From Verrucomicrobiota bacterium (GTDB lineage Bacteria > Verrucomicrobiota > Verrucomicrobiia > Verrucomicrobiales > Akkermansiaceae): 64,000 nt of DNA. Below the pieces are notes generated by a model. The model made no database searches and had not been told where the DNA came from. It worked only from the letters and a program-made list of their open reading frames with translations. The stretch covers positions 1-64,000 of the forward strand of contig JAURPJ010000015.1 of the NCBI GenBank assembly GCA_030835305.1, given 5' to 3'. Position 1 is the stretch's first letter. Each line of letters starts with the position of its first letter. Shown here one piece after another: positions 32,050 to 48,186 of the stretch. A program made the translations under genes and the position numbers.

Positions 32050-33570
32050 ATGGGAAAAATCTATTTCGGTCTCGTGCTCACTTTGCTGGTTTCCATCGTG
32101 GTCCTGCTCGCGGGAGGAGTTCTGGCGAAGCGCTCGGTTACGCGGGTCACTTCTGTCGACCGTGAATTACTCAAGGATCTTTCGGCCAAAGTTGCATCGG
32201 TCGTGAGTGAGCGGAAATCGGAGCGTGTGAAAGCTCTTGAAGAGATTGCCTATGAGGCTGCGAAGCCGATGGCTGATGAGATCGAGGCAAAAATCTCGGC
32301 GCTGCCAGGAGTGCGGGGGGCTTTCCTTTTTCAAGAAGGAAGGCCGGGGCGTGAATGGGTTTTATTGGGGCGGGTTGGGTCAAGGTCGCCGGCAGAAGTG
32401 GTGGTACAGGGAGTGAAGGCTCCTCTAATCGCGGAGCGGGCAATCGTGGTTCCGGAGGGGCTTTTCAAGGAAGTGACTTTTGGGGAATCAGGTCGGATCG
32501 ACAATGAGGAGCGGTCGTTCTACGGTTGGTGGTTCTCTCCTTTGCAGGGAGTTGTGGTCTTATATTTGTTGGAAAGTGGCTTGGAGGAGGCCGCTCTGAT
32601 GAGTGAAGTCGGCTTGCAAATCCGGGACGATTTTGAGCGGGCAGCAATAGCCGGAGCAACGGTAGAAGCCTTTTACAACGGGAAGCGACTTGCCGGCGAG
32701 GGGTTGCCGGAACGGATGGCAACAGCTGAAACGGGAGACGGTAGGTATGCGGTACGCGCTTGGGATCGCAGGACCGAGGAGCAGGAATTTGATTGGACCA
32801 CGATGTTTGGTGCGATTGGACTCGCGGTTGTGATCGCCGGAGTAGGCCTTGGATTGTTTTATTCACAGCAGCGTATGTGGCGGGCTTCCGAACAGAGGGT
32901 TTCCTTCGTCAACCGGGTTTCCCACGAACTTGGCACCCCGTTGACAAATATGACTTTGAACCTGGAGCTGGCATCAAGGTCGCTTCGGTCACAGCCCGAG
33001 ATGGCCGGGCGTCGGTTAGAGAAGGTAAGTGAGGAGATTTCAAGGCTGGGGCGTCTTGTGACGAATGTTTTGACTCACTCGCGGAAGCCGGGCGACGGGA
33101 TTCAGGATCGCCTTGTTGTCTGTGATCCCGATGCGGTGATTCTCGGGGTCTTGGACCAGTTCCGGTCCGCGCTTGAGCGGCGTGCAATCGAGATTGAGTG
33201 GACCCCTGGCGAGACGGGGGAACAACGAATCAATTCGGATGCCTTGTCCCAGATTGTCTGGAACCTGATCTCGAATGTTGAGAAGTATGCCTCAAGTGGT
33301 GAATGGTTGTCGGTTTCTGTTTCGCAGGGTGATGGGTCTTTGAGGGTAAGGGTGTGTGATCGGGGTGAAGGAATTCCCAGTGAGCGCCGTGCAAAGGTCT
33401 TCAAACCATTCGAGCGCGTTTCCGACTCAACAAAGGAAGGAGTGAGCGGAACAGGGCTGGGACTTTCGATTTCGCGCGAGTTGGCGGAGTCGATGGGTGG
33501 AAGCCTCTCACTACTTGATGCCCCCGAGATGACTATTTTTGAACTCATAATTCCCCTGCAAACGACATGA
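32050..33570 (+). CDS. sensor histidine kinase
   Basis: A 506-residue membrane kinase. TM1 lies at about 7-26, a periplasmic sensor region of about 220 residues follows, and TM2 is at about 251-270. The dimerisation/phosphoacceptor helix S-H-E-L-G-T-P-L carries His292. The ATPase domain has an N box (W-N-L-I-S-N-V-E-K-Y), G1 (C-D-R-G-E-G-I-P) and G2 (G-T-G-L-G-L-S-I-S). No clear HAMP linker is seen. Starts 9 bp after the second secreted paralogue and overlaps the response regulator by 4 bp (ATGA), so all four are probably one operon. Confidence 0.93.
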   Translation: MGKIYFGLVLTLLVSIVVLLAGGVLAKRSVTRVTSVDRELLKDLSAKVASVVSERKSERVKALEEIAYEAAKPMADEIEAKISALPGVRGAFLFQEGRPGREWVLLGRVGSRSPAEVVVQGVKAPLIAERAIVVPEGLFKEVTFGESGRIDNEERSFYGWWFSPLQGVVVLYLLESGLEEAALMSEVGLQIRDDFERAAIAGATVEAFYNGKRLAGEGLPERMATAETGDGRYAVRAWDRRTEEQEFDWTTMFGAIGLAVVIAGVGLGLFYSQQRMWRASEQRVSFVNRVSHELGTPLTNMTLNLELASRSLRSQPEMAGRRLEKVSEEISRLGRLVTNVLTHSRKPGDGIQDRLVVCDPDAVILGVLDQFRSALERRAIEIEWTPGETGEQRINSDALSQIVWNLISNVEKYASSGEWLSVSVSQGDGSLRVRVCDRGEGIPSERRAKVFKPFERVSDSTKEGVSGTGLGLSISRELAESMGGSLSLLDAPEMTIFELIIPLQTT

Positions 33571-34232
33571 AGATTCTTGTGACTGAAGATGAGCCGATGA
33601 CTCTTGAAGCCTTGGGGGAACTCCTGCGCATGGAAGGGTTTGATGTTGTGGAAGCCAGCGGTGGTGAAATGGCCTTGAAACTTTGGGAGGAAGTTCATCC
33701 TGATTTGGTCTGCCTGGATATTATGATGCCGGGAATGGACGGGTATGAGGTTTGCCGGAGATTACGGGAGAAGGATTCACGAACCCCCATTCTGTTTCTT
33801 TCAGCGAAAAATGAGGAGAAGGATATCGTTGCCGGGCTTGAACTAGGGGCGGATGATTTTATCCGGAAGCCTTTTTCGACAGGAGAGGTGATGGCGAGAA
33901 TCAAATCGGTCATAAGGCGTGCCTATCCGGAGAAGGGAAGCCGTAAGATCCAAATGGCGGATGTGGTGGTTTGGCCGGATGAACTTCGGGCCGAGCAAAA
34001 CGGTTTGGGGATCGAGTTGACACTCCGGGAGGTAAAGATGCTTCTCTTGCTCGAAGAGAAGAAAGGTCTGCCGGTGTCGCGCGACGAGTTTTTGGATCGA
34101 TGTTGGGGGATGGATTATTTTCCGGATTCGCGTACGCTGGATCAACATGTGCACATGCTGCGCAAGAAAATCGAGGGCGGTAGCGAGTTGATCGAGACTG
34201 TGCGTGGGGTTGGGTATCGATTCCGGGGTTGA
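33567..34232 (+). CDS. OmpR-family response regulator
   Basis: A 221-residue DNA-binding regulator. The receiver domain has the acidic pair E7-D8, phosphoacceptor Asp51 (V-C-L-D-I-M-M-P-G-M-D-G) and the switch Lys in F-L-S-A-K. The C-terminal winged helix (about 125-221) ends in the usual Y-R-F-R. It is translationally coupled to the kinase by a 4-bp overlap. Targets unknown; the upstream secreted pair is an obvious candidate. Confidence 0.95.
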   Translation: MKILVTEDEPMTLEALGELLRMEGFDVVEASGGEMALKLWEEVHPDLVCLDIMMPGMDGYEVCRRLREKDSRTPILFLSAKNEEKDIVAGLELGADDFIRKPFSTGEVMARIKSVIRRAYPEKGSRKIQMADVVVWPDELRAEQNGLGIELTLREVKMLLLLEEKKGLPVSRDEFLDRCWGMDYFPDSRTLDQHVHMLRKKIEGGSELIETVRGVGYRFRG

Positions 34233-34279: not shown

Positions 34280-34450
34280 ATGAATGACAACGAGGTCCAA
34301 TGTCCGTCCTGCGGTCAGTGGTTTACCATTTCCATGGTGGCACCCGAGGACTACGGTAGCCAGATTGACTATGATTGCGAGGTGTGTTGACGGCCGCTTA
34401 CGCTCATGGTCGATGAAGCAGGTTATATCACAGCAATTACCGAATTTTAG
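34280..34450 (+). CDS. CPXCG cysteine-rich protein with in-frame TGA at a conserved Cys (candidate selenoprotein)
   Basis: A 56-residue frame from ATG 34280 to TAG 34448-34450, interrupted only by TGA at 34388-34390. The first half has the paired motif C8-P-S-C11-G and ends D-C33-E-V-C36; after the TGA it reads R-P-L-T-L-M-V-D-E-A-G. In the CPXCG family (small zinc-ribbon-like proteins of about 60 residues) this region normally reads D-C-x-V-C-C-R-P, so the TGA replaces the second Cys of the adjacent pair. A GGAGG lies 14 nt before the ATG. A hairpin with a GGUCG loop begins 17 nt after the TGA. The likeliest reading is selenocysteine insertion; the alternative is a nonsense mutation. Follows the response regulator by 47 bp. 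Confidence 0.65.
34388..34419 (+). promoter_or_regulatory. candidate bacterial SECIS hairpin
   Basis: Directly after TGA 34388-34390, bases TCAT (34404-34407) can pair with ATGA (34413-34416) around a GGTCG loop (34408-34412). GCT (34396-34398) can pair with AGC (34417-34419), leaving a 5-nt bulge on the 5' side. The loop starts after 17 nt and contains G-G-U, as I recall for the E. coli fdhF element, whose loop is AGGUCU at a similar distance. The upper stem is short, so this is a candidate only. Confidence 0.4.
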
Positions 34451-34575
34451 AGTGTTTTGAGGCATCTGAACCCTCTGGACACCCTTTCCTGACCCGATAT
34501 CAACAGGCTTTCGGAGTAAGGGCAGGATGCCGAAACGCAGGAGGCCTGCTGAGAATGCCACCGCTCCCCCGGAGC

Positions 34576-34701
34576 TCATCCTTTTGCGAACTCCTCCGGA
34601 GTCTTCATTCCCAGGCTCCGGTGTGGACTAAGTTCCTTGTATTTCTGCTTCCAGACTGTAATCACGACCCGGTCTTCACTCAAGGTGGTTGCTCGGAATT
34701 T
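34576..34701 (-). mobile_element. IS3-family transposase (OrfB) 3' remnant
   Basis: About 41 codons on the minus strand end at TGA 34578-34576 and read V-W-K-Q-K-Y then E-L-S-P-H-R-S-L-G-M-K-T-P-E-E-F-A. This is the standard C-terminal end of IS3-family integrase-core transposases (pattern Y-N-x-x-R-P-H-x-S-L-G-x-x-T-P). The upstream catalytic part is absent, so the copy is dead. Confidence 0.75.
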
Positions 34702-34769
34702 TCTTTTAAGGTGGAGCGCCTTAGAGCATCGATGAATGAATCGGAGAGGGGGAGGAAAGGGGTTCTTGG

Positions 34770-35217
34770 GTTGGAGTCAACTGGAGTGTCACCATTCAGA
34801 TGCCCCAGGCCTTTGTGCTGTGACGTTTCACCCCGAGTTCCAGCAACGACAGCCCGGGTCTCAACCCTAATGTCTGGCAAATTCAAGGATCCACTGACGA
34901 CATGACCTGGACCAACATCTTTTGGCACAAGGTCGATGACCCCGCAGCACCGGCAAGTGGCGCCTTTAACCCATCCTGGCAATCTTTGGAGTGCTCGAAA
35001 CTAAGTCCTTCGCTTCGATGGCGGACGAGCCGACTTTGCCACGCCAGCTGCTTGCGATTGGTTCCGCATCAATGTCGACTCTGTCACCGTGTGGGCTGGA
35101 GAGGTCGACACTGTCCTCAGCGAGCTCGAACTTTTCTGAACTGCCGTTCCCGAACCTTCGGGCACCCTTCTCTTAGACCTGGCCGGACTGGCTCTCGATT
35201 TGCGCCGGAAACGCTGA
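34770..35217 (+). pseudogene. decayed PEP-CTERM protein with discoidin-like domain
   Basis: From about 34770 one frame reads N-W-S-V-T-I-Q-M-P-Q-A-F-V-L, a TGA (34821-34823), then N-V-W-Q-I-Q-G-S-T-D-D-M-T-W, as in discoidin-like beta-sandwich domains. After a frameshift near 35000 another frame reads F-R-I-N-V-D-S-V-T-V-W-A-G-E-V, a second TGA (35137-35139), then V-P-E-P-S-G-T-L-L-L and a hydrophobic stretch ending R-R-K-R. That is a PEP-CTERM sorting signal. Two nonsense codons plus a frameshift make this a pseudogene. It resembles the intact PEP-CTERM gene at 42216. Confidence 0.7.
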
Positions 35218-35347
35218 ATCTCCAAGACGAACGATTTCAAAACCCGACCCTGGATCCTCCGATTGGTCGGATTTTTCATTTCCACCCCGCTGACTCAACG
35301 GCTCCGCGAAAGGCTGATCTTCCTTGTCAGTAGCAAGGAGGAATTCT

Positions 35348-36649
35348 GTGAACTTGCACAGAACAAAGATGATTGTAGCCTCCATGATGGCTTCGATTGA
35401 TCTTTCACGACGGACATTTTTGGCAGGAACAGCGGCAACCCTTTTGACCCCATCAATGGCGCGGGCACAGGCGAATGAACGAATTCAGATCGGGGTGATT
35501 GGTTATGGCAAACGAACTGGGCCCGTGCTGCGCAATGCCTTGCGGGAAGGAGCTGTCCAAGTCACCGCCCTGTGCGAGATTGAAGGAACGCGTCTGGAGG
35601 CTGGCAAGAAAGCTGTCGAGGTCGGATACGGGAAGGAGAAGAAGAGCGCAAGCTTCAAGGGCTGTGCCACCTACGTCGATTATCGCGAGATGCTGGAGAA
35701 GGAACAGCTGGATGCAGTGGTTATTATGACTCCGGATCATATGCATGTGCATCCTTCTCTAGCCGCCATTGCCAAAGGATGTGATGTCTATTGCGAAAAA
35801 CCACTGACCCAGAACATTGCCGAAGGTCGTCTTCTGGCCGAGGCCGTTAGGAAAGCCGGAACGGTTTTCCAAACGGGAAGTCAGCAGCGAAGTGAATACG
35901 CAGGTCGTTTCCGGAGAGCCGTCGAATTGGTTTGGGCAGGCCGGATCGGAGACGTGAAAAAGATCCACGTGGGAGTTGGTGGACCGCCCATTCCTTGTGA
36001 TTTGCCCACGGAGGACCTACCGAACAATGTTGATTGGGAGTTGTGGCTCGGGCCGGCCCCGATGCGGGGATATAATGAAATCCTGTGCCCGAAAGGGATT
36101 CACAATCACTATCCCCAGTTCCGAAAGTATCAGGAATATGCCGGAGGAGGATTGGCGGATATGGGAGCGCATCATTTTGACATCGCGCAGTGGGGAATTG
36201 GGATGGACGCAAGCGGACCCGTTTCAGTGACACCACCAAAGGAGGGCGAGAGTGGACTGAAATTCACCTATGAAAATGGAGTGGAGATGTTTCACGGCGG
36301 CTTTTCGGGAACGACCTTCGAGGGAACCGAAGGAACGATTCAGGTGGGAAGAGGTTCTTTGAAGGTTAGCCCGAAGAAGCTTATGGAGGAGGAATTGCCA
36401 AAGAACGCGAAACGGGTGACCTCATCGAACAATCACTTCACCAATTGGGTGGAGTGCATCAAGTCGCGAGAGGATCCCATTTGCCCGGCGGAAATCGGGC
36501 ATCGCACCGCGACCGTGTGCCACCTGGCAAACATCGGATACAAGTTGAGGAGGGAATTGAAATGGGATCCGAAAAAAGAAGAGTTCGTCGGAGATGCCGA
36601 GGCGAATGCCCTGCGGTCCAGAAAGCCGAGAGACGGTTGGTCTTACTGA
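35348..36649 (+). CDS. Tat-exported Gfo/Idh/MocA family oxidoreductase
   Basis: A 433-residue NAD(P)-dependent oxidoreductase with a twin-arginine signal (L-S-R-R-T-F-L-A-G), so it acts outside the cytoplasm. The Rossmann motif is I-G-V-I-G-Y-G, the catalytic Lys lies in Y-C-E-K-P-L, and the C-terminal Bac5-like domain has G-A-H-H-F-D-I-A-Q-W. The GTG at 35348 is the likely start: a full AAGGAGG (35335-35341) lies 6 nt upstream, whereas ATGs further in lack one. Exported members in this phylum are often linked to glycoside processing. It lies about 200 bp before a PVC-type propeller cytochrome. Confidence 0.92.
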   Translation: MNLHRTKMIVASMMASIDLSRRTFLAGTAATLLTPSMARAQANERIQIGVIGYGKRTGPVLRNALREGAVQVTALCEIEGTRLEAGKKAVEVGYGKEKKSASFKGCATYVDYREMLEKEQLDAVVIMTPDHMHVHPSLAAIAKGCDVYCEKPLTQNIAEGRLLAEAVRKAGTVFQTGSQQRSEYAGRFRRAVELVWAGRIGDVKKIHVGVGGPPIPCDLPTEDLPNNVDWELWLGPAPMRGYNEILCPKGIHNHYPQFRKYQEYAGGGLADMGAHHFDIAQWGIGMDASGPVSVTPPKEGESGLKFTYENGVEMFHGGFSGTTFEGTEGTIQVGRGSLKVSPKKLMEEELPKNAKRVTSSNNHFTNWVECIKSREDPICPAEIGHRTATVCHLANIGYKLRRELKWDPKKEEFVGDAEANALRSRKPRDGWSY

Positions 36650-36849
36650 ACGCTGACCAGCCCCCTTTCGACAGACCGCCCGGGTGTTTCTCGGATATTT
36701 GCCTTCAACGACGTTGACAGTAATCGGGAAACCGGACAATCAACACACGAATAAATGGAGAACGCCTGCTTTCCCTTTGAAAATTCGACCTTGAAAATCG
36801 GGAGGGAAAGGCGACTACATCTCTTACACACTTCTTCATACTAACCATC

Positions 36850-39800
36850 ATGATGTCTCGATTCCTGACCCTCGCGACGGTCCTCCTGTGTTCCCAGGGG
36901 TCCGCTTTTTCCCAAGATCTCGGCAAGAAACAGCCGTTTCGGGGCAAGCTCACTGATTCCCAACTCGAGGGATATCAGATCGCTGCCTGGCCGCTGGTGA
37001 AGCATGCCACCAGCTTCGAAATTGACGAGAAGGGGCGATTCTTCATCGTCGAATCGGATCGACTGAATGGCGGAGGAATCCTCGATATCCGGGGTGAAGC
37101 ATCGCTGACCGCCGGAGATTTCCGCCTCCAGACCATCGAAGACCGTCGCCAACAGTTGCTTTCGGACAATAAATTCAAGCGGGGCTTTTTCACCACCATC
37201 TCCGAGCGGGTCGCCCGGCTGGGAGATGTCAATGGAGACGGCATTCCCGACAAGCGCACCGAGTACGCCGAGGGCATGAATGATGTTCTGGACGGGGTCG
37301 CCTTCTCTGCTCTGGCCGTCGACGGGACTCTTTACCTGACCTGCATCCCCAATCTCTGGAAATTCGAGGATACCGATGACGATGGCGTGGCGGACAAGCG
37401 CGAGAAATTGTTCACGGGATTCGGGGTGCGCACCAGCATGATGGGCCACGACCTGCACGGCATCATCCGCGGACCTGATGGAAAGCTCTACTGGAGCGTG
37501 GGAGATCGCGGCTACAACGTGACCACCAAGGGCGGCAAGAACTTCGCGGCCCCGAGTCGTGGAGCCGTCTTTCGCTCCGATCCTGACGGCTCCAACTTCG
37601 AGGTCGTCCACCACGGACTGAGAAACCCGCAGGAACTGGCCTTCGACCAACACGGAAATCTCTTCACCTTCGACAATACTGGCGACATCGGCGACAAGGC
37701 CCGTGTGGTCTATTTGCTCGAGGGTGCGGATTCCGGTTGGTACGAGGAACATCAGGCCGCCCACCAATATCGCTCACGACTCGACTTCGCGGACATCGCT
37801 CTTCCAACTTCGATCTGGGTTGCCGAGCAGATGTTTGCCCCAAGGAACGACGTTCAGCCAAAGTGGATCCTGCCACCGGTGGCCAACGTCGGAAATGGAC
37901 CATCCGGGGTTGTCTACCTGACCGGCGAATCGCTCCCGGAGGACCTGCGCGATACCTTTTTGATATGCAACTACCGTGGCAATGCTGGGAACTCCCAGTT
38001 GCTGTCGATCCGGCCAAAAACGAATGGGGCCGGCTTCAAAGTGGATGGCGCCAAGGTCGTCATGAGCGGTGTTGCCATTTCCGATGTGGATCTGGGATAT
38101 GACGGCCGCATTTACGCGCTCGACTTTGGGGGTGGTTGGACCAAAAACAAAAATGCTTCCATTCAAGCGATCGAGTCACCAAAGCATCTCCAGAACGAGT
38201 CGGTGAAACAGACCAAGGAGTTCTTCGCCTACGGCTTTGGCAAGGCGGAGTCGGGCCAACTCGCCGAGCTTCTGACCCACCCCGACATGCGGGTTCGCCA
38301 GCGTTCCCAATTCGAGTTGGTCAAGCGAGGAGACAAAGACAAGCTCACCGCCGCTGCAAAAACTGGCAAGACCACAACCACTCGCCTTCACGGCGTCTGG
38401 GGATTGGCGCAAATGGCTCGCCAAGACGCCTCGCTGGTTTCAACCTTGATCGATCTGGCCAAGGACAAGGACGTCGAAGTCCGGGCTAACACCTGTCGCT
38501 CTCTGGGCGATCTCAAAACCAAGGAAGCGGCGACGGTCCTGCGGGAAAGTCTCACCGACTCTTCGCTTCGGGTCCGAAGCCTGGCCGCTATTGCCTTGAG
38601 CAAGTGCGGAAGCATCTCCGATGCGCCCGCCATCTGGATACTTATCGAGGAAAACAAGGGAGAAGATCTTTGGATTCGTCACGCTGGCATCTCCGCTCTC
38701 AAGAACCTTGGGGACAACGCAGGCGCCATCGCCAAGATGTCCTCTCCCAGTGAGGAAGCGAGGCTGTGCGCCGTCATCCTTTTGCGCAAGCTCGACGATC
38801 CGGCGGTGGCGGGCTTTGTCGGTGATGCCTCGAAGCAGGTCCAGGTCGAAGCGATCCGTGCGGTCTATGACCGCCATCTCGCGAGTGGCTTTCCCGCCCT
38901 TGCCAAGCTGGCCGAAAAAGCCTCGGAGTTTTCCGATATCATTCAGCGCCGTATCCTCTTTGCCAGTTACTGGATGGGCCAACCGGATGACGCGGCTCGG
39001 GTGATGGCAATGGCGGGTGATCTCAAGGTCGATGGAAAGGTTCGCGAGACCGCGTTGCGTGCTCTCCTTCGTTGGAACAATCCTCCGACCATGGACCCGG
39101 TCACGGCGATGTATCGCCCCGTTGAAAAGCGTGATGTCGAGTTGCTTGCCGCACTCGCGGCACCGCTTCGCAATGCTGTGCAGAATGGCAAAGGCCAGGA
39201 GCAGGCCCTTGCGCTTGAGTTGGCCAAGGCCGTGAACCTCCCGATGTCCGCGGAAGCGTTGGAAAATCAAGTCTTCGATGAATCACTGGAATCCGGGATT
39301 CGCGTCGCGGCCCTGAATACCGTGGCCGGTCAGAACAATGAAAAAATCCCCGCAATGGTCGAGAAACTGAAAGGCACCAAGGACGGCCAGGTTCAAGCCG
39401 CCCGTCTAAGACTCATGTTCGAAGCGGAACTGCCCGGAAGATTCGTGGCAGCAGAGGAGGCCCTCACAAGCAAGGACCTTCCTGCTGTTCGCGCTGCCCT
39501 GGCCTTGCTCGCCACCGATTCCGGCGGCAAGGAAATCCTGACCAAGGCGTGGAGCAATCCGGACGCCCTGATCAAAGAAGCACGTCTCGATGCCTACCTG
39601 GCCCTCGCCTCGTCAACCGATCCAGACCACAAAAAACTCGCCGCCGGGTTCTCAGCCAATTTGGCCGAGCTGCAGAAGCTCTCACTACACGGTGGAGATG
39701 CCGCGGCTGGCGCCATCGTCTTCCAGAACCAAGGAGCCTGCATGCAGTGCCACATGATCGGCGGCAAGGGCGGCGTGCAAGGACCGGCCCTCGACACTGT

Positions 39801-40125
39801 CGGCAAACGCCTTGTTGGCGAAAAGATCCTCGAATCCCTTGTGAATCCAAGCGCGGAAATCGCCGAAGGGTATGGACTCTTCACCCTCAACACAAATTCC
39901 GGCGAGGCCCTGGCGGGACGGCTTGGCAAAGAAACGGAGACCGAGGTCGAGTTGATCCTTCCCACCGGTGAATCGAAAACGATTCCCAAAGATCAAATCA
40001 AGGATCGCGCCGGCCCTACCTCGGCCATGCCCCCGATGGCGCTGGCTCTGCCTCCCCAGGATCTGCGTGATCTAGTCGCCTACCTCGCTTCGCTCAAGAC
40101 TGCAAGCGAGGAGAAAGGACACTGA
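36850..40125 (+). CDS. PVC-type beta-propeller / HEAT-repeat / heme c protein
   Basis: A 1091-residue exported protein. The signal peptide ends G-S-A-F-S-Q. A sugar-dehydrogenase-like beta-propeller follows (about 40-440, with calcium-type D-T-D-D-D-G-V-A-D-K). Next is a long HEAT-like helical repeat region (about 460-900), then a C-terminal cytochrome-c domain with C-M-Q-C-H at 964-968 and likely distal Met in T-S-A-M-P-P-M. Members are thought to oxidise carbohydrate and pass electrons to the heme. The 14963-18307 paralogue has the propeller but ends in a copper domain instead. Confidence 0.93.
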   Translation: MMSRFLTLATVLLCSQGSAFSQDLGKKQPFRGKLTDSQLEGYQIAAWPLVKHATSFEIDEKGRFFIVESDRLNGGGILDIRGEASLTAGDFRLQTIEDRRQQLLSDNKFKRGFFTTISERVARLGDVNGDGIPDKRTEYAEGMNDVLDGVAFSALAVDGTLYLTCIPNLWKFEDTDDDGVADKREKLFTGFGVRTSMMGHDLHGIIRGPDGKLYWSVGDRGYNVTTKGGKNFAAPSRGAVFRSDPDGSNFEVVHHGLRNPQELAFDQHGNLFTFDNTGDIGDKARVVYLLEGADSGWYEEHQAAHQYRSRLDFADIALPTSIWVAEQMFAPRNDVQPKWILPPVANVGNGPSGVVYLTGESLPEDLRDTFLICNYRGNAGNSQLLSIRPKTNGAGFKVDGAKVVMSGVAISDVDLGYDGRIYALDFGGGWTKNKNASIQAIESPKHLQNESVKQTKEFFAYGFGKAESGQLAELLTHPDMRVRQRSQFELVKRGDKDKLTAAAKTGKTTTTRLHGVWGLAQMARQDASLVSTLIDLAKDKDVEVRANTCRSLGDLKTKEAATVLRESLTDSSLRVRSLAAIALSKCGSISDAPAIWILIEENKGEDLWIRHAGISALKNLGDNAGAIAKMSSPSEEARLCAVILLRKLDDPAVAGFVGDASKQVQVEAIRAVYDRHLASGFPALAKLAEKASEFSDIIQRRILFASYWMGQPDDAARVMAMAGDLKVDGKVRETALRALLRWNNPPTMDPVTAMYRPVEKRDVELLAALAAPLRNAVQNGKGQEQALALELAKAVNLPMSAEALENQVFDESLESGIRVAALNTVAGQNNEKIPAMVEKLKGTKDGQVQAARLRLMFEAELPGRFVAAEEALTSKDLPAVRAALALLATDSGGKEILTKAWSNPDALIKEARLDAYLALASSTDPDHKKLAAGFSANLAELQKLSLHGGDAAAGAIVFQNQGACMQCHMIGGKGGVQGPALDTVGKRLVGEKILESLVNPSAEIAEGYGLFTLNTNSGEALAGRLGKETETEVELILPTGESKTIPKDQIKDRAGPTSAMPPMALALPPQDLRDLVAYLASLKTASEEKGH

Positions 40126-40579
40126 AGGTTTCCTCGAAACCTCTCCAGAGAACTCCAGTCTCCCGATTCTTCATCATGGCTCGAATCAAATCGAGAGCAT
40201 AGTCTTCTGCGGGAGGGTTGGTAAACCAATTTACCGGCAAGGGCTTTGCCAAATGCCAGCGGGTTCTCAGATCGATCCCCACCAACTCGCGGGCGTCCTG
40301 GAGAACCACCTCCAGATCGATCCCACCCCGATACAAGGCCAGATCATGATCAACTTGGGCCGCCCAGCAGCCGACAACTGCCATTGTTTCAGCACCGCGA
40401 GCTGGTTAAAGAAGAGCCAGTCCTTAAACTATTTAGCTAACCTGAATTGTTTGATCGAAACTGTAGAGCCCCTCTAGCCTGACGAAAAACGCTTTAGTTT
40501 AGGGAAGTTCTATAACTGCCTATCGATTACATTCTTGTTGACTATTTATCGACCTCGCCTCAGGGTTCTCGTAGTCTAT
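40126..40579. other. gap with a possible gene remnant on the minus strand (40133-40384)
   Basis: A minus-strand open frame covering about 40384 down to 40133 has protein-like composition (D-L-A-L-Y-R-G-G-I-D-L-E-V-V-L-Q-D-A-R-E-L, then K-P-L-P-V-N-W-F). A further protein-like piece (F-N-Q-L-A-V-L-K-Q-W-Q) lies just upstream in another frame, which suggests a frameshifted remnant. I cannot name the family. Nothing else is visible in the gap. Confidence 0.3.
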
Positions 40580-42112
40580 ATGAAGACAACAAAACAGTTT
40601 CTATCCTTTCCCCTGAAGTCTTCTCTTTTCATTTTAGCCCTCAACGCGACTGTCAATGCTGGGGAGATTCCTATATCCGGTATCGAAGGCTTTCATCAGG
40701 GAGACAGCTTGGATGGTAATGGCTCAATCCTGAAAGCGATCGATGGCAGCGGCATGGATAAGGTTGATTTCGACGACCCCTCCACCTGGACGGTTGCGAG
40801 CACGGCTTGGGCCGATGATTGGCAGGGGTTTTCCTCGGACAATTCTGGTGATAACACTTGGGCTGTGATCGATCTTGGAGCTCCAGCAACTAGACTGAGG
40901 ACAATGTATCTATGGAATATCCAAGAAACCAACGCCCTTGACCGTGGGGTTAAGGAATTTGAGGTGTTTCATTCGACGAACCCGACTCTTCCAGCGCCGA
41001 CTACAAGCGGCACCGTCACCCCCTACAGCTTTACCAGCGGGGGGTGGACTGCAATTGGTGGATCTGAACTCAAGATGGGCATCCAATTTGGTGATCCGGG
41101 ACAGGCTTACGATCTCTCGGATGCTGCCGGGGCCCGTTACATTGGCCTCAAGTTCACAAGTAACTACGGTGGGTTTCGCACCGGATTTGCTGAAGTGGCC
41201 TTTAGCGATGTTTTAGATCCAGATGCTCTCACTCTGGGTGAGCCAGTTCCTCCAGATCCCCCTGTTGATCCCCCTGTTGATCCACCGGTTGGCCCCATCG
41301 ATGGGAATGTTGTCGCCATAGCTGAAGTCTCGGCTTTTCATCAGGGAGATAGCCTCGATGCGAATGGATCAGTTTTGAAAATTGCTGACGGGAGCGGGAT
41401 GGCAAAAGGCGACGCCAACGATCCTTCAACTTGGACAATCAGCAGCACTGCTTGGGCTGATGACTGGCAGGGTTTTTCCTCAGACAATTCCGGGAACAAC
41501 ACTTGGGTTGTCCTCGATTTGGGAGTTCAAACTGCTGGCCTTGACAAAATGTATCTCTGGAATGTCCAAGAGACAAATGCTCTCGATCGGGGAACGAGCA
41601 CTTTTGATGTCTACTACGCCTCCTCTCCTAGCGAAGCAGCTCCAGACACCAGTGGAGCTGTCACACCCTATGATTTTGGGAGTGGTGGATGGATTCAGCT
41701 CAGCACCGGAAATAATCTCGCACAGGGAACTCAGATCGGTGATCCCGGCGAAGTTTTTGACATCTCGGGAGCTTCGGGTGCCCGTTATATTGGACTTCAC
41801 CTCACCGCTAACCATGGTGGTTTCCGCACCGGTCTCGCCGAGGTTGCCATCACCGTAGACTCGTCAGGAAGTGGCCTTGAGATCATCAGCGTCGATACTT
41901 CTGAGATCCAAGAAAACAGGCTCGGGCTCACTTGGTATTCCAGACCGGGAAGAATCTACGGGATTAATTATTCAGATGATTTGATCGAATGGATCGAACT
42001 GACCGACAGTCATCCGGCAAACGCTGATGGGGAAACAACCACTTTTTCTTTTGAAGGACCTGATGTTCTTGCTGCGAAGAAGCGATTTTTCCAAGTTTTC
42101 GAGGTTGAATGA
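40580..42112 (+). CDS. secreted protein with two discoidin-like repeats
   Basis: A 510-residue exported protein. The signal peptide starts at ATG 40580 (M-K-T-T-K-Q-F-L-S-F). It is followed by two copies of a domain of about 185 residues, each opening F-H-Q-G-D-S-L-D and containing W-A-D-D-W-Q-G-F-S-S-D-N-S-G, M-Y-L-W-N and N-A-L-D-R-G. A short Pro/Val/Asp linker (P-P-V-D-P-P-V-D-P-P-V-G) separates them. The C-terminal 75 or so residues match the end of the LamG protein at 2058. The repeat pattern suggests an F5/8-like carbohydrate-binding role. No catalytic residues seen. Confidence 0.82.
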   Translation: MKTTKQFLSFPLKSSLFILALNATVNAGEIPISGIEGFHQGDSLDGNGSILKAIDGSGMDKVDFDDPSTWTVASTAWADDWQGFSSDNSGDNTWAVIDLGAPATRLRTMYLWNIQETNALDRGVKEFEVFHSTNPTLPAPTTSGTVTPYSFTSGGWTAIGGSELKMGIQFGDPGQAYDLSDAAGARYIGLKFTSNYGGFRTGFAEVAFSDVLDPDALTLGEPVPPDPPVDPPVDPPVGPIDGNVVAIAEVSAFHQGDSLDANGSVLKIADGSGMAKGDANDPSTWTISSTAWADDWQGFSSDNSGNNTWVVLDLGVQTAGLDKMYLWNVQETNALDRGTSTFDVYYASSPSEAAPDTSGAVTPYDFGSGGWIQLSTGNNLAQGTQIGDPGEVFDISGASGARYIGLHLTANHGGFRTGLAEVAITVDSSGSGLEIISVDTSEIQENRLGLTWYSRPGRIYGINYSDDLIEWIELTDSHPANADGETTTFSFEGPDVLAAKKRFFQVFEVE

Positions 42113-42215
42113 TACCGATCCTCTATTTTTACAGGCCAATTTTGAAAAAAAACTAGACTAAAGCGCTGAAAAACACTTCACTGCGGAAGGTGAAACCCCA
42201 CCAAATAAGAATCAC

Positions 42216-42902
42216 ATGAAAGCACTAACAAAATTACCAATGCTCTTGGGTGTCACTTTCGGCACCGCATCGGCTGCCGTCGTAGTTCCTGCGGGTATTA
42301 CAGCCTTCCACCAAGGCGATAGCCTCGATGGAAACGGCTCCATCCTGAAGGCCGCTGACGGAAGCGGAATGGCCAAAGGCGACGCCGACGATCCTTCGAC
42401 TTGGACAGTCAACAGTACTGCTTGGGCTGATGACTGGCAGGGTTTCTCTTCAGACAACTCCGGGAATAATACTTGGGCCGTCGTCGATCTGGGATCTGCA
42501 ACCGCTGGCCTCGACATGATGTATCTTTGGAACGTCCAAGAGACAAATGCTCTCGATCGGGGAACGAGCACTTTTGACATCTACTATGCCACTTCTCCTA
42601 CGTTGGCAGCACCTGCCGCGAGCGGAACAGTCACCTCCTACGACTTTGGCAGCGGTGGTTGGACCCAGCTCAGCGCCGGAAACACTCTTGCACAAGGAAC
42701 TCAGATAGGTGATGCCGGTGAGAGCTTTGATATTTCGGGCGCCTCCGGTGCTCAGTATATCGGACTCCACCTTACCGCAAACCACGGCGGCTTCCGCACT
42801 GGTCTTGGTGAGATTGCGATCACAACAAGCGAAGTTCCAGAGCCAGGTTCACTTGGACTTCTCCTTCTTGGAGGCCTCCTTGGACTTCGTCGCCGTCGCT
42901 AG
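42216..42902 (+). CDS. PEP-CTERM protein with one discoidin-like domain
   Basis: A 228-residue exported protein: signal peptide, one domain of the type duplicated in the preceding gene (F-H-Q-G-D-S-L-D-G-N-G, W-A-D-D-W-Q-G-F-S-S-D), then V-P-E-P-G-S, a hydrophobic stretch and R-R-R-R at the end. That tail is a PEP-CTERM signal, handled by an exosortase for envelope anchoring or export. Its domain shares a 44-bp identical DNA stretch with the second domain of the neighbour (41564-41607 and 42534-42577), so the two have duplicated or converted recently. A terminator follows. Confidence 0.88.
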   Translation: MKALTKLPMLLGVTFGTASAAVVVPAGITAFHQGDSLDGNGSILKAADGSGMAKGDADDPSTWTVNSTAWADDWQGFSSDNSGNNTWAVVDLGSATAGLDMMYLWNVQETNALDRGTSTFDIYYATSPTLAAPAASGTVTSYDFGSGGWTQLSAGNTLAQGTQIGDAGESFDISGASGAQYIGLHLTANHGGFRTGLGEIAITTSEVPEPGSLGLLLLGGLLGLRRRR

Positions 42903-42944
42903 TTTTCCGCTTGGTGAACGAGCCAACAAGGACTAAATATTTTC

Positions 42945-42971
42945 AGAAAGCCCGCTGATAGCGGGCTTTCT
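42945..42971 (+). terminator. perfect terminator hairpin abutting the next start codon
   Basis: A perfect 12-bp inverted repeat (42945-42956 with 42960-42971), GAT loop, followed by a short T run. It ends 6 nt before ATG 42978 of the next gene, so it may also act on that gene's leader. Confidence 0.85.
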
Positions 42972-42977
42972 TTGCGT

Positions 42978-45900
42978 ATGCGGACACCTCTTAAATTCTC
43001 ATTTTTAGCAATCGCCTTTTTCAGCGCGGTCTCTTGTCGTAGTGATCGTGACTTCTCCAAAAACGGCGGGGCGACTGACTCTCTCCCCATCCGCTATGCC
43101 GACCGGGACGAATTGATCGTTACCGATCTGGAAAGCTTTGAAGGACAAGGTCTGGATACTAAAACCTTATTTCAGGCAGTCGATGCAACTTCAGCCGGAA
43201 TGAACTTTGTTCACCGGTGGGAACTCAACGCACAGACCGTTAGATTATTTGACCGAATTGAAGCGGGAGGTGGCGTAACGGTAGGTGACATCGATTCTGA
43301 TGGTTTACCTGATGTGTTCCTCACTGCTCCTCTAGGCGGCTCGCGTTTGTATCGAAATCTGGGAGATTTTCGTTTCGAAGATATCACAGAACACGCTGGT
43401 TTATCAACTGATGCTCTTGAGATGCGGACGGGAGCTTCCTTTGCAGATATCGATAACGATGGAGATTTAGATTTGGCAGTGTGTGGCTTCGATTGCCCCA
43501 CTCGATTGTATATTAACGATGGAAAAGGGACCTTTGTTGATCAGGCCACGGAGCTGGGCTTCAACTTTAAGGGATCGGGAATCATGGTTTCCTTCTCAGA
43601 TTATGATCGAGATGGAGACCTTGACGCTTTTATCGCAACCCATCGCTATGCCGTCGATCTCGACAATCCAAAATACGATAATGGTAGATTTGCGGTGAGT
43701 CAGATGCAGCGCGGGAGTAATGGTAAAATGGGTATGCCACCGTGGCTTGACGAGCTTTGGGGAACCATCGATCGCCCCGGAAAAGGGCCTTTCATTATCC
43801 GAGCAGGTCAACGTGGACGCCTTTTTCGTAATGACGGGAATCAGTTTGCAGAAGTGGGTCTCGAGGTAGGAATCGAGGATCGAGGTATGTCCCTCTCCGC
43901 CACATGGTGGGACCATAATGGTGATGGCTGGCCGGACCTATATGTTGCCAACGACTTTTTAGGTTCAGACCGCCTTTATGAAAATCAAAAAGACGGCACC
44001 TTTCGGGATGTGGCACCCGATGTATTGCCGCAGGTGCCATGGTATTCAATGGGGAGTGATGTCGGAGATATTAACAACGATGGTCGGGAGGATTTCATTG
44101 CAACTGATATGGCCGGCTCGACTCACTATAATGCAAAGCTTGCGATGGGCGATATGAGCAAATTTGCATGGTTTCTGGAGAGCGGAACACCCCGTCAATA
44201 CATGCGCAATTCTATCTATCTCAACACTGGACGAGGGCGTAAAATGGAAGTTGCACAGCAACTTGGGCTCGATGCCTCGGACTGGACCTGGTCCCCCAAA
44301 TTTGGCGACCTCGATTGTGACGGGTGGCTTGATATCTTTATCACGAATGGAATGACCGCGGATTGGTTCAACAGCGATTCGCGCCGCCAGTCGGCCCTTG
44401 GATCCAGTACCCCCTATACTGAACTTAAACCAAAGCGAGACCTCAACATGGCCCTTAAAAACAGGAAAGGCGGAATGTCCTTTGAGCCAGTAGGAGAAAA
44501 GTGGGGTTTAGCAGAAGCCAACGCGAGTTTCGGGGCAGCGCTGGCCGACCTCGATCTCGATGGCGATCTTGATATCATCGTCAACCGATTTAAGGAACCT
44601 GTCGCCCTTTACCGGAATAGAAGCACTAAAGAACGGATCCGGGTTAAATTATTTGGCCGTGCGAGTAACTCCAACGGGGTAGGTGCGACCGTGACAGTCA
44701 TGGCGGGTGATCTACGCCAAATGCGAACCGTCACACTCGCTCGTGGCGTTGTTTCAACCAATGAAGCTTTAGCTCAGTTTGGGCTTGGGGAACTTAATAA
44801 AATCGATGAACTCATTGTGAACTGGCCAAGTGGGCATACCCAAAGCTTCACCAACTTGGAATCTGGTAAGTCTTATGAAGTTACCGAGCCGACTGGCACC
44901 CCGACAGAGAAAACAGCTCCTGAAACGACTCTTGATCCTTTTTTTATAAAGGATCAAAGCTTCCCGGACATAGCACATCATGAACTCGAATTTGATGACT
45001 TTGGGACGCAACCACTTCTTCCGAATCGGATGTCACGTTTGGGACCAGGGCTTGCGGTAGGTGATATCGATGGCGATGGCGATGAGGATGCTTATCTCGG
45101 AGGAGCCCTAGGCTCAGACGGAGTGATTATAGAAAACAACGGGAAAAGCTGGAAAGCAGACACCCGAATCAGCGGAGGAAGCAATCATGAAGATATGGGT
45201 GCCCTTTTCTTCGATGCCGAGGGTGACGGAGACCTTGACCTTTACGTGGTGAGCGGCGGCGTTGAATCTAAAATAGGTTCTTCGAACTATCGTGACCGGC
45301 TCTACTTGAATGACGGGGAAGGAAATTTTGAGCTAAGTGATGAGGGATCTCTTCCCGAGGTGATGGAAAGCGGATCTTGTGTGATTGCTGCTGATTATGA
45401 TGGCGATGGTGACCTCGATCTCTTCGTGGGTGGCAGAGTTGTTCCGGGAGAATATCCAATGGCCCCTCCAAGTCATTTACTCCGAAATGACTCCAATGAA
45501 GCTCGGATTCAATTCGTTGATGTGACCTCAGAGGCCGCTCCCGCTTTTCAGAATTTAGGGATGGTGACTTCAGCATTATGGTCAGACGTTGACAGCGACG
45601 GTGATTCAGATCTTTTGGTAACTGCTGAGTGGGGGGCAGTACGTTGGTTCCGTAACACCGATGGTAAGTTCACCGAGAACGAGGACTCTGGAATTTCCAG
45701 TCTCTTAGGGTGGTGGAATGGAATTGTAGGGGGCGATCTCGATCATGATGGTGATATTGATTACGTCGTCAGTAACTTCGGGCTCAATACGAAATATCAT
45801 CCTTCAACCAAGAAGCCGGCCATCCTTTATTATGGGGATTTCTCCGGGAATGGAGAGAGGCGAATTGTTGAAGCCAAGACTACCCTAAAGGGCGCCCTTC

Positions 45901-46682
45901 CAGTCCGAGGATATAGTTGTTCAAGTTCAGCGATTCCAAGTGTCTTAGAAAAAATGGGTAGTAATAAACCTTTCCATAACTTTGCAATTAAGGCTCTCGA
46001 TGAAATCTATACTGAAGCGCGCCTCGAGGAAGCTCAGCGCTTCGAAGTCAATGAATTACGTAGTGGTGCGTTCATAAATGATGGTGAGGGGAAGTTTACC
46101 TTTCGTGCTCTTCCCGCCCTAGCACAGGCTGCGCCTGGTTTTGGGATGTCGCTAGGTGATATCAATGGAGACGCTCATCTCGACCTGTATATGGTGCAAA
46201 ATTTCTTCAGCCCGCAACCTGAAACTGGACGGATGCACGGAGCAATGAGTATCCTAATGACAGGCCGAGGAGATGGGATGTTTGATTCAGTGTGGCCTGA
46301 AACCAGTGGTCTGATTGTCCCGGGAGATGCAAAGGGTCTCGTGCAATTTTCAAAGGGTCATTTTCTCGTCAGTCAGAATAATGGAGAAACACTTTTATTC
46401 CGTCCTAATCATGACCGTTCGCGGCACTGCCATATTCGATTGATCGGTCACTCTAAAAACCAAAGAGCGATTGGAGCTCGAGTTTCTTGCTCATTAGAGG
46501 GTGTGCTGCTTGGGAGCTTTGAAGTTTATGGAGGCAGTGGCTATCTCAGTTCCGGAGCCTCGATAATATCTATACCTTATGGAGGTGAGGGCGTGTTAAA
46601 TATTGAGGTTGCATGGCCTGATGGTTCAAAAAGCAACCACCAAATTCTCGCACAAGAAGGCGGAGAGATTAGGAAACCGTAA
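42978..46682 (+). CDS. FG-GAP/VCBS repeat lipoprotein with ASPIC/UnbV domain (CRTAC1-like)
   Basis: A 1234-residue lipoprotein. The signal ends in a lipobox (A-V-S-C). Many calcium-binding FG-GAP/VCBS blades follow (D-I-D-S-D-G-L-P-D, D-I-D-N-D-G-D-L-D-L-A and others) in two sets, about 80-520 and 660-1100. Between them lies an ASPIC/UnbV domain (about 540-640: N-G-V-G-A-T-V-T-V, then W-P-S-G-H-T-Q) and a second one ends the protein (W-P-D-G-S-K). The role is probably surface adhesion or glycan binding. ATG 42978 is required by the lipobox; there is no room for a Shine-Dalgarno sequence between the hairpin and the ATG. Confidence 0.92.
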   Translation: MRTPLKFSFLAIAFFSAVSCRSDRDFSKNGGATDSLPIRYADRDELIVTDLESFEGQGLDTKTLFQAVDATSAGMNFVHRWELNAQTVRLFDRIEAGGGVTVGDIDSDGLPDVFLTAPLGGSRLYRNLGDFRFEDITEHAGLSTDALEMRTGASFADIDNDGDLDLAVCGFDCPTRLYINDGKGTFVDQATELGFNFKGSGIMVSFSDYDRDGDLDAFIATHRYAVDLDNPKYDNGRFAVSQMQRGSNGKMGMPPWLDELWGTIDRPGKGPFIIRAGQRGRLFRNDGNQFAEVGLEVGIEDRGMSLSATWWDHNGDGWPDLYVANDFLGSDRLYENQKDGTFRDVAPDVLPQVPWYSMGSDVGDINNDGREDFIATDMAGSTHYNAKLAMGDMSKFAWFLESGTPRQYMRNSIYLNTGRGRKMEVAQQLGLDASDWTWSPKFGDLDCDGWLDIFITNGMTADWFNSDSRRQSALGSSTPYTELKPKRDLNMALKNRKGGMSFEPVGEKWGLAEANASFGAALADLDLDGDLDIIVNRFKEPVALYRNRSTKERIRVKLFGRASNSNGVGATVTVMAGDLRQMRTVTLARGVVSTNEALAQFGLGELNKIDELIVNWPSGHTQSFTNLESGKSYEVTEPTGTPTEKTAPETTLDPFFIKDQSFPDIAHHELEFDDFGTQPLLPNRMSRLGPGLAVGDIDGDGDEDAYLGGALGSDGVIIENNGKSWKADTRISGGSNHEDMGALFFDAEGDGDLDLYVVSGGVESKIGSSNYRDRLYLNDGEGNFELSDEGSLPEVMESGSCVIAADYDGDGDLDLFVGGRVVPGEYPMAPPSHLLRNDSNEARIQFVDVTSEAAPAFQNLGMVTSALWSDVDSDGDSDLLVTAEWGAVRWFRNTDGKFTENEDSGISSLLGWWNGIVGGDLDHDGDIDYVVSNFGLNTKYHPSTKKPAILYYGDFSGNGERRIVEAKTTLKGALPVRGYSCSSSAIPSVLEKMGSNKPFHNFAIKALDEIYTEARLEEAQRFEVNELRSGAFINDGEGKFTFRALPALAQAAPGFGMSLGDINGDAHLDLYMVQNFFSPQPETGRMHGAMSILMTGRGDGMFDSVWPETSGLIVPGDAKGLVQFSKGHFLVSQNNGETLLFRPNHDRSRHCHIRLIGHSKNQRAIGARVSCSLEGVLLGSFEVYGGSGYLSSGASIISIPYGGEGVLNIEVAWPDGSKSNHQILAQEGGEIRKP

Positions 46683-46858
46683 AAACTCCAATCTAAACTC
46701 GCATGGGGCTTGTCGATCAATCGCGCGAAATCTGCAATTTCAAGCCTAGAGCGTTCGAAAAACAAAGCCCCTCGCTCCACTCTCACCCCCCATACAATCG
46801 TGCCCCTAGATAGGCCAAATTCCTAAAGACCGGCCGGAGTAATCAGGAGGTAACTTAA

Positions 46859-46887
46859 TTGACACGGATACGAAAATAACGTATTAA
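46859..46887 (+). promoter_or_regulatory. sigma-70-like promoter
   Basis: TTGACA (46859-46864), 17-bp spacer and TATTAA (46882-46887). It points at the foldback element starting at 46948 and, further on, at the glycosyltransferase gene. Confidence 0.5.
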
Positions 46888-46947
46888 CTACCCTCCTGCG
46901 GGATTTCCGTCACGTTCATTTATAGTAGAGGTCTTGCACTCTTCCAG

Positions 46948-47118
46948 TTTATGGACCGCGCAGAGCGAGAGGATCGGTGCTTGATAGTCTTTTCGAGCTA
47001 GATGTTAACCGGCCTCCTGTGTTCTGGCCCCCGGCCTTTCAATCCGGAAGCCTGTTGACATCTAGTCCGAAAAACTTATTTAGGGACTCTGATCTTCTCG
47101 CTCTGCGCAGTCCATAAA
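46948..47118. repeat. 171-bp nested foldback element (MITE-like or structured RNA)
   Basis: The outer arms are 28 bp (46948-46975 and 47091-47118), inverted, 26 of 28 matching. An inner inverted pair of 12 bp (46998-47009 and 47054-47065, 11 matching) lies inside, with a further 6-bp pairing TTTTCG/CGAAAA between the two. The 44-bp apex is rich in GGCC. No open frame is present and no target-site duplication is clear. It sits between a good promoter and the glycosyltransferase gene, so a regulatory RNA or a transcribed MITE are both possible. Confidence 0.6.
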
Positions 47119-47187
47119 ATGGTAGGATTGTAAAATGACCTCATGGTCGATGAGCAGGGAGGGGTAAGCACGATTGGGGACGACTAG

Positions 47188-48186
47188 ATGAGCGATTTGG
47201 TGTCGGTGATTTTCCCGGTTGGGCCCGGGGTGTTTGATGCTGGTTTGGCACTAAATGATTTGCTGGGGCAGAGCTACTCCAGGCTCGAGGTAGTGGCGGT
47301 GCTGAACGGGTGTCCCGAAGGAGTAAGGCGGGAATTTTTGGGCCGGAATGATTCTCGACTCAGGATCATTGATTTGGGGGATGAGCCCAGATTGTTGGAT
47401 GCTCTTGATTTGGCGGTGGAAAATTGTCAGGGCAGGTGGCTGGCGCGGATGGATGCAGATGACCGGTGCGATTCAACGAGGATTGAGAGGCAGGTCGCCT
47501 TGCTGGAATCCGGTCAGTGTGAGGTGGCGAGTTGCGGAATTTCGCTCAAGGGGGCATTAGGTGATGGAATGCAGCGCTATGTGGATTGGGTCAACGGACT
47601 GGACAATCCGAAGAAGGTTTCACGGGAGAGATTCGTAGAGAGCCCGGTGGTGCAACCCACTGTGGTGATGGCTAAGTGCTTGTTTGAGGAAGTCGGAGGT
47701 TACTTTCGGAACGGTTTTGCGGAGGACTACGATTTGTGGCTGCGCCTACTGGAGCTCGGCGCGCGATTTGGAAAGGTTCCGGAGTTTCTCTATGACTGGC
47801 ACGATCGGCCGGATCGCCTAACCCGGAGCGATCCTCGTTTCGAACATAAAATGATGCTGACATTGAAAGCTGATGCCTTGGCCCGCCTTCCTGAGATCAA
47901 GGAGAATGGCGTCGTGATTTCGGGTGCCGGACCCATTGGGAAGGTGTTGGGACGCGAATTAATTTCGCGGGGAATCGCGGTTTGGGGTTATTTTGAGGTG
48001 AGTCCCAAAAGGATTGGGAGCACTTGTCAGGGGGCTCCGATCGCGGGCCCTTGGGAATTTGGGCGGCGCTGGCGGGATGCCATTTTACTGGCAGCGGTGG
48101 GCGTTGGTGGTGGCCGGATGATAGTAAGAAAGTTGGCCAACGAAGCGGGATTCAAGGAGGGAAGCGACTTTTGGTGTTGTTGTTAG
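47188..48186 (+). CDS. family 2 glycosyltransferase with C-terminal Rossmann-like domain
   Basis: A 332-residue protein. The GT2 domain covers about 1-215: it opens S-V-I-F-P-V-G-P, has the nucleotide-sugar/metal motif M-D-A-D-D-R near residue 92 and the acceptor-side F-A-E-D-Y-D-L-W-L-R. Residues about 230-332 form a separate nucleotide-binding-like unit (V-V-I-S-G-A-G-P-I-G-K-V-L-G-R-E-L) that ends C-C-C. GT2 enzymes usually stop after the first domain. It stands alone between the foldback and a tRNA, so its glycan is unknown. Confidence 0.85.
   Translation: MSDLVSVIFPVGPGVFDAGLALNDLLGQSYSRLEVVAVLNGCPEGVRREFLGRNDSRLRIIDLGDEPRLLDALDLAVENCQGRWLARMDADDRCDSTRIERQVALLESGQCEVASCGISLKGALGDGMQRYVDWVNGLDNPKKVSRERFVESPVVQPTVVMAKCLFEEVGGYFRNGFAEDYDLWLRLLELGARFGKVPEFLYDWHDRPDRLTRSDPRFEHKMMLTLKADALARLPEIKENGVVISGAGPIGKVLGRELISRGIAVWGYFEVSPKRIGSTCQGAPIAGPWEFGRRWRDAILLAAVGVGGGRMIVRKLANEAGFKEGSDFWCCC

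Follow-up and report, generated by a model that had tools for sequence, protein, structure and literature searches.

The window analyzed here, a 64,000-nucleotide stretch from contig C127 of a genome of 4.45 Mb that is 97% complete, carries on its forward strand a frame at positions 34280 to 34450 that encodes a candidate selenoprotein of the CPXCG family (PF14255). The frame opens with ATG at 34280, contains a TGA at 34388 to 34390, the proposed selenocysteine (Sec) codon for residue 37, and ends with TAG at 34448 to 34450. With the TGA translated as U, its 56 residues read MNDNEVQCPSCGQWFTISMVAPEDYGSQIDYDCEVCURPLTLMVDEAGYITAITEF. When cysteine is written at the TGA, the protein matches the PF14255 profile with 32.1 bits (curated cut-off, 25.2), and the 36 residues that precede the TGA match no Pfam family at an E value of 0.001 in a Pfam scan. 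The CPxC and DYDCxVC-C-x-P columns are invariant in a 43-row PF14255 alignment in which Sec is counted as Cys, and each of the 43 members has Cys or Sec at residue 37. The original prediction described a 56-codon frame with CPSCG and DCEVC, then TGA, then R-P, with the TGA standing exactly at a family cysteine; the coordinates and the translation agree with this description, and the homologue alignments bear out the position of the TGA.

Upstream on the same strand lie a histidine kinase (HisKA, HATPase_c; 32050 to 33570) and a response regulator (Response_reg, Trans_reg_C; 33567 to 34232), each of which is retained as a neighbor in only 3 of 21 loci. In 16 of 20 loci from relatives, the gene immediately after CPXCG encodes a family 2 glycosyltransferase; its counterpart in the window is at 47188 to 48186 on the forward strand. 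No partner gene with a clear functional hint was found at the CPXCG loci.

The distance to the glycosyltransferase reflects an insertion. Homology to a sister genome (L075; 94% over 4423 compared columns) ends at position 34422 and resumes at 47135, just before the glycosyltransferase, so the last 10 residues of the frame (AGYITAITEF; with the stop codon, 34418 to 34450) are not ancestral and were made by the insertion junction. The displaced native 3' end, LMVDEQGGVSTIGDD with its stop TAG, occupies 47140 to 47187 on the forward strand and begins with a second copy of a 14-bp repeat, CTCATGGTCGATGA, which corresponds to the top of the hairpin described below and is present at both junctions (34403 to 34416 and 47140 to 47153). 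The displaced 3' end and the presence of the 14-mer at both junctions imply that a 12.7-kb block entered the hairpin region; the inserted block, 12,737 bp between the two repeat copies, is placed at 34417 to 47139. Two parts of the original prediction thus fail, namely, that the frame has a normal family tail and that nothing else in the gene is damaged: the native tail is displaced, the gene is split, and the hairpin carries a surplus A in its 3' arm. By coincidence, the new tail is as long as that of the family. Loss of the downstream tail in relatives had been named as grounds for discarding the Sec reading; relatives keep a tail, whereas the window's own native tail has been displaced. The zinc-ribbon core, the TGA, and the hairpin loop of the window allele are intact, and one hairpin arm has an extra base. 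No second CPXCG copy was found in this genome.

The cargo of the insertion includes a GFO/IDH/MocA oxidoreductase, a DUF7133/HEAT/cytochrome c protein, a PEP-CTERM protein, and an FG-GAP/UnbV protein. Near its left end, a minus-strand peptide presumably resembles the C terminus of an IS3-type transposase; the left-end DNA recurs in the same genome at 75 to 88% identity and has a weak inverted match near the right end. Repeated stretches at 34473 to 34687 and 34687 to 34765 have many copies in this genome (75 to 88% identity), and copies of the latter occur in other members of the genus as well. An inverted repeat of 35 nt (46941 to 46975 and 47091 to 47125; 89% complementary) lies near the right junction.

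TGA and cysteine at residue 37 among relatives

The CPXCG gene was found in 47 of 58 related genomes and, in a family-wide search, in 149 of 260 genomes. The genus to which the window belongs is represented here by 27 genomes, its own included, and the gene was found in 23 of these and not found in 4. Among the 23, the column of residue 37 holds TGA in 16 and TGC or TGT in 7, and in each of the 16 TGA genes the single in-frame stop is a TGA at this same column. A collection of named genomes returned 71 loci, 70 of which have a recognizable site: TGA in 14, Cys in 56, and another residue in none. The 14 named TGA loci come from 14 of the same 16 genomes, such that the two counts are not additive. 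An in-frame TGA that exchanges with Cys in homologues, which is one of the marks of a bacterial selenoprotein, is therefore present. The alignment that the original prediction had proposed shows the exchange at exactly this column, and the sense codons other than Cys that it considered incompatible with Sec are absent from all 70 named loci.

Outside the genus, no TGA form occurs among the matches listed in the family search (260 genomes, 149 with a match) or in the class search (384 genomes, 177 with a match), and none was found in a phylum search (387 genomes, 50 with PF14255). Two weak matches in the class search carry an internal TAA.

In a tree of joined SelA and SelB sequences (30 rows), the 16 TGA genomes group together in a single clade of 18 with support of 98/97, with the Cys members and the outgroups outside it; according to the program's warnings, this tree has some long end branches and four rows that are less than half filled. 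Because all 16 TGA genomes lie in a single clade, one gain of Sec from Cys suffices. Searches found no CPXCG gene in the other two members of the TGA clade (G012 and G014; one genome is 96% and the other 81% complete), from which it may possibly have been lost. A single Cys-to-Sec switch inside one genus would constitute a clean natural experiment in which Cys and Sec sisters can be compared and the birth of the hairpin can be traced codon by codon.

The TGA and Cys forms also differ elsewhere in the gene. For the adjacent cysteine, Cys36, 15 of the 16 TGA genes use TGT, and every one of the 7 Cys genes in the genus uses TGC; at the named loci, the codon is TGT in 14 of 14 TGA forms and 21 of 56 Cys forms. 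Many Cys forms end in an acidic C terminus of the GLDD or GLDE kind. The C termini of the Sec forms (GGY, GGC, ESF, APW, EEN, and others) are of a different kind, a change that goes with the Sec clade, and the tail is poorly conserved among Sec forms.

All four components of Sec decoding that the original prediction had suggested looking for are encoded in the window's own genome, which supplies a second mark of a bacterial selenoprotein. Profile searches recovered selA (488.8 bits) and selB (317.7 bits); tRNA-Sec scores over the cut-off and is called as tRNA-SeC (tca) by ARAGORN; and selD (L208; contig C27, 15132 to 16061) is present, with one TGA in its Sec motif and a strong hairpin behind it. 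The ten selD loci of the genus that were read have a TGA in the motif SCGG-U-ASKLGQAEL (SCAG in one), again with a strong hairpin behind. Since selD itself contains a TGA, Sec decoding in the genus is independent of the CPXCG case. Over the 16 TGA genomes, selA scores above the cut-off in 15, selB in 15, selD in 13, and tRNA-Sec in 11, and selD has one TGA in each of the 13 genomes that have it. The gaps comprise selA, not found in G022; selB, present only as a fragment in G015; and tRNA-Sec, not over the cut-off in 5 of 16. These gaps lie in draft genomes, and those of the tRNA arise under stricter filters. Among all 58 relatives, selA was not found in 21, only one of which, G022, has the TGA; it also has selB and tRNA-Sec, and its selD contains a TGA. 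Since selA is present in every one of the 7 Cys members of the genus, the Cys in these genomes is not explained by a missing selA.

The hairpin behind the TGA

A bSECIS-like hairpin occupies 34402 to 34419 on the forward strand of the window, with GCTCAT as its 5' arm, GGTCG as its loop (34408 to 34412), and ATGA-(A)-GC as its 3' arm, in which the extra A at 34417 weakens the window copy. The stem starts 11 nt after the TGA and the loop 17 nt after it, 17 nt being the distance given in the original prediction, and GGTCG begins at this distance in all 16 TGA genes. The commonest form of the hairpin is GCUCAU-GGUCG-AUGAGC, and the most divergent gene (L041) has CCUCGU-GGUCG-ACGAGG, in which six pairs are kept through two double changes. 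Six pairs form in most relatives, and the window has four plus two behind the bulge.

The published bSECIS model asks for a loop of 3 to 9 nt with a G in its first two positions, an upper stem of 4 to 16 bp, a distance of 16 to 37 nt from the UGA, and a free energy of -7.5 kcal/mol or lower (PMC13188914). The 5-nt loop, its GG, and the 17-nt distance place the CPXCG hairpin within the loop, spacing, and stem ranges. When the loop is forced, a local energy of -7.5 kcal/mol is reached in 10 of the 16 TGA genes; the window gives -4.6 kcal/mol, and its value of -7.7 kcal/mol over 45 nt belongs to another fold. At gathering scores, Rfam assigns no family to the hairpin, and its only match in the window is a tRNA.

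The strongest signal of the hairpin is a trough in synonymous variation, which points to an RNA-level constraint confined to TGA forms. Among the TGA genes, pS falls to 0.16 to 0.17 in the 5-codon windows that start at codons +3, +4, and +5, whereas the 27 windows that precede the TGA all have at least 0.625. In contrast, the 7 Cys genes show no collapse at the trough position (pS, 0.59 to 0.67). The valine at +7 is encoded by GTC in all 16 TGA genes; this codon is not used by any of the genus's 7 Cys genes, though it occurs in 8 of the 56 named Cys loci. Among the named genomes, 13 of the 14 TGA loci and 1 of the 56 Cys loci have a GGTC loop with at least 4 pairs.

Standard pairs fill 88.9% of the cells in the aligned hairpins, versus 22 to 47% when the pairing is slid. 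The observed paired percentage is reached in 51 of 500 shuffles and the covariation score in 26 of 500. Both double changes occur in the same sequence, and covariation is therefore used as weak support. Consensus folding of the alignment itself gives only 4 pairs (-3.3 kcal/mol). When the tail of the window gene is recoded synonymously, an equally long best stem arises in 27% of trials, and by this measure the longest stem of the gene is not the conserved hairpin. Over the 16 TGA genes, P values for single-gene hairpins range from 0.04 to 0.95, for which reason their significance is not used as evidence. A hairpin in any one gene could be due to chance, and the case rests on conservation rather than on the window alone.

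Alternative readings of the TGA

Taken together, the Cys/TGA exchange, the constrained hairpin, and the Sec machinery support the selenocysteine of the original prediction, and decoding of the CPXCG TGA as Sec in one uncultured Akkermansiaceae clade is, on this comparative evidence, very probable. Were the TGA instead a real stop, the gene would specify a 36-residue protein ending in DCEVC, and the remainder would be a leader of the glycosyltransferase, which in many relatives starts right behind the frame; TGA is also a normal terminator in this genus. Such a product is hardly credible, since in-frame constraint persists past the TGA. Over codons +1 to +18 of the TGA genes, pS is 0.556 and pN is 0.257 in frame, whereas in the two shifted frames pS (0.31 and 0.295) is similar to pN (0.336 and 0.38). 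Additionally, Arg at +1, Pro at +2, and Gly at +11 are invariant in the 16 genes, which use four codons for each of them, and the truncated product is the one that lacks a Pfam match. The TGA might also be read through with an ordinary residue (e.g., Trp or Cys, by a near-cognate tRNA), and the base after it, C in 16 of 16 genes, creates the UGA-C context, which is leaky. That outcome is nevertheless very unlikely given that the window's own genome has the complete Sec machinery, that the codon exchanges with Cys only, and that plain readthrough would not need a hairpin under synonymous constraint. A sequencing or assembly error as the source of the TGA is practically negligible: although the relatives are draft genomes, most of them metagenome assembled, 16 separate genomes share this TGA, and 14 of these come from many isolates and bins. 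Reassignment of TGA in the genetic code was considered and rejected on the basis that TGA terminates 5 of the 16 TGA genes themselves and ends 14 of the 28 long open stretches of the window.

The remaining alternative bears on the allele rather than on the family and is compatible with Sec decoding. The window's copy may be a dying gene, such that the Sec reading would apply to its relatives only. Its native tail lies 12.7 kb away, a hairpin arm has gained a base, and no second copy was found in its genome. Conversely, the zinc-ribbon core, the TGA, and the loop persist, only 5 of the 108 bases before the TGA differ from those of the sister, and the displaced tail belongs to a region that varies among Sec forms anyway. 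Decay of this copy is thus a serious possibility, if slightly the less probable one.

Under Sec decoding, SelA and SelD would charge tRNA-Sec(UCA), and the hairpin with the GGUCG loop (stem 11 nt and loop 17 nt behind the UGA) would recruit SelB, which would deliver Sec at residue 37 in place of termination. The insertion in the window's genome has split the gene and left its core, Sec codon, and hairpin top in place. Gene callers that take TGA as a stop would cut CPXCG Sec genes at residue 36.

Residue 37 and comparison with known systems

AlphaFold2, supplied with 43 homologues and with Cys in place of Sec, predicts a small five-stranded fold (pLDDT, 83.9; pTM, 0.58). Its best matches among solved structures are five LysW entries with Z scores of 4.9 to 5.4 (the next row is at 3.4), root mean square deviations of 1.9 to 2.5 Å over 45 to 47 residues, and 11 to 22% identity; a Z score under 8 may mean only a common arrangement. 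Foldseek returned no match at an E value of 0.001 or better (LysW rows, about 0.7), and a sequence search of the PDB gave nothing convincing.

From the CPxC and CxxC motifs, C8, C11, C33, and C36 are probably zinc ligands, which would place Sec37 directly behind the last ligand, i.e., behind the second CxxC. Residue 37 is Cys or Sec throughout the 43-row alignment, and Sec was adopted there, making it the likely reactive residue. The favored, though tentative, role of Sec37 is that of an exposed selenolate in reversible reaction with Cys36, with another thiol, or with a soft metal, which would make it a redox or metal switch on a zinc ribbon, an idea we infer from chemistry and from other vicinal Cys-Sec proteins; redox switching and soft-metal capture would both fit. 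A broader scenario, which we consider rather unlikely as a whole, has Sec as a fifth chalcogen beside the last ligand and not as a metal ligand, serving as a fast trigger, of redox or metal type, by which the zinc site is opened or loaded; it would have arisen once, along with a change of the first knuckle from CPTCFE-like to CPSCGE and the disappearance of the acidic C terminus, and the insertion in the window would have taken the top of the SECIS stem-loop as its junction. Provided that Sec is retained at sites of active thiol chemistry, residue 37 deserves attention rather than the four putative zinc ligands, and the placement of Sec may reveal the role of the uncharacterized CPXCG protein.

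The closest relations of the proposed selenoprotein are the Cys forms of PF14255, which have the same small zinc-ribbon-like protein with CPxC and DYDCxVC-C-x-P but differ from the window's family in lacking the Sec at residue 37 and the GGUC hairpin behind it. The Sec forms have CPSCG where the Cys forms of the genus have CPTCF or CPTCH, though a few other Cys forms have CPxCG (L095 and L096), and the Sec forms are without the acidic GLDD or GLDE C terminus of many Cys forms. The LysW amino-group carrier represents the closest solved fold to the predicted model (Z of about 5). The C terminus of LysW is EDWGE, with a modifiable Glu, and this motif is absent from the CPXCG C termini that were read in both Sec and Cys forms.

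Among listed selenoproteins, the FmdB family zinc ribbon (TIGR02605; UxxU) is likewise a small zinc-ribbon protein (PMC13188914 Table 1). Unlike the CPXCG protein, FmdB has its Sec within the CxxC pairs themselves (U/CxxU, UxxU), and the window protein scores 14 bits against TIGR02605, below the cut-off of 31.3. This subthreshold FmdB hit is the only match of the window protein in an NCBIfam scan. Vicinal Cys-Sec is shared with the CU-motif selenoproteins SaoC, SaoL, HgcA, MbdU, and KCU-star, which by name and model accession are other families (PMC13188914 Table 1); several CU selenoproteins are linked to metals, and the Sao proteins to metal or metalloid handling (PMC13188914).

GOS_A and GOS_B, as described in the available portion of a 2008 ocean survey, are hypothetical selenoproteins from marine metagenomes, GOS_A with 2 Sec sequences and 155 Cys homologues (PMC2398784). 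They resemble the CPXCG protein, so far as that portion goes, in being selenoproteins of unknown function from marine metagenomes. The NCBIfam scan reported no match to GOS_B (NF041374) at E values up to 10, provided that its library includes this model; GOS_A is compared by its description only, such that it could be identical with the CPXCG family.

The original prediction knew of no described selenoprotein in the CPXCG family, and none appears in either of two published tables (PMC13188914 Table 1 and PMC9312934 Table 1). Nor is a PF14255 selenoprotein named in the available portions of PMC12013277 and PMC2398784; a literature search gave no paper containing PF14255, and judged by their titles, none of the papers on CPXCG concerns this protein. 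Given its absence from the published tables, we call CPXCG, unless GOS_A proves to be the same, a new selenoprotein family with an unusual place for Sec in a zinc ribbon; as a family that is apparently not yet listed, it would extend the 2026 catalogue of 119 prokaryotic selenoprotein families and subfamilies (PMC13188914 Table 1).
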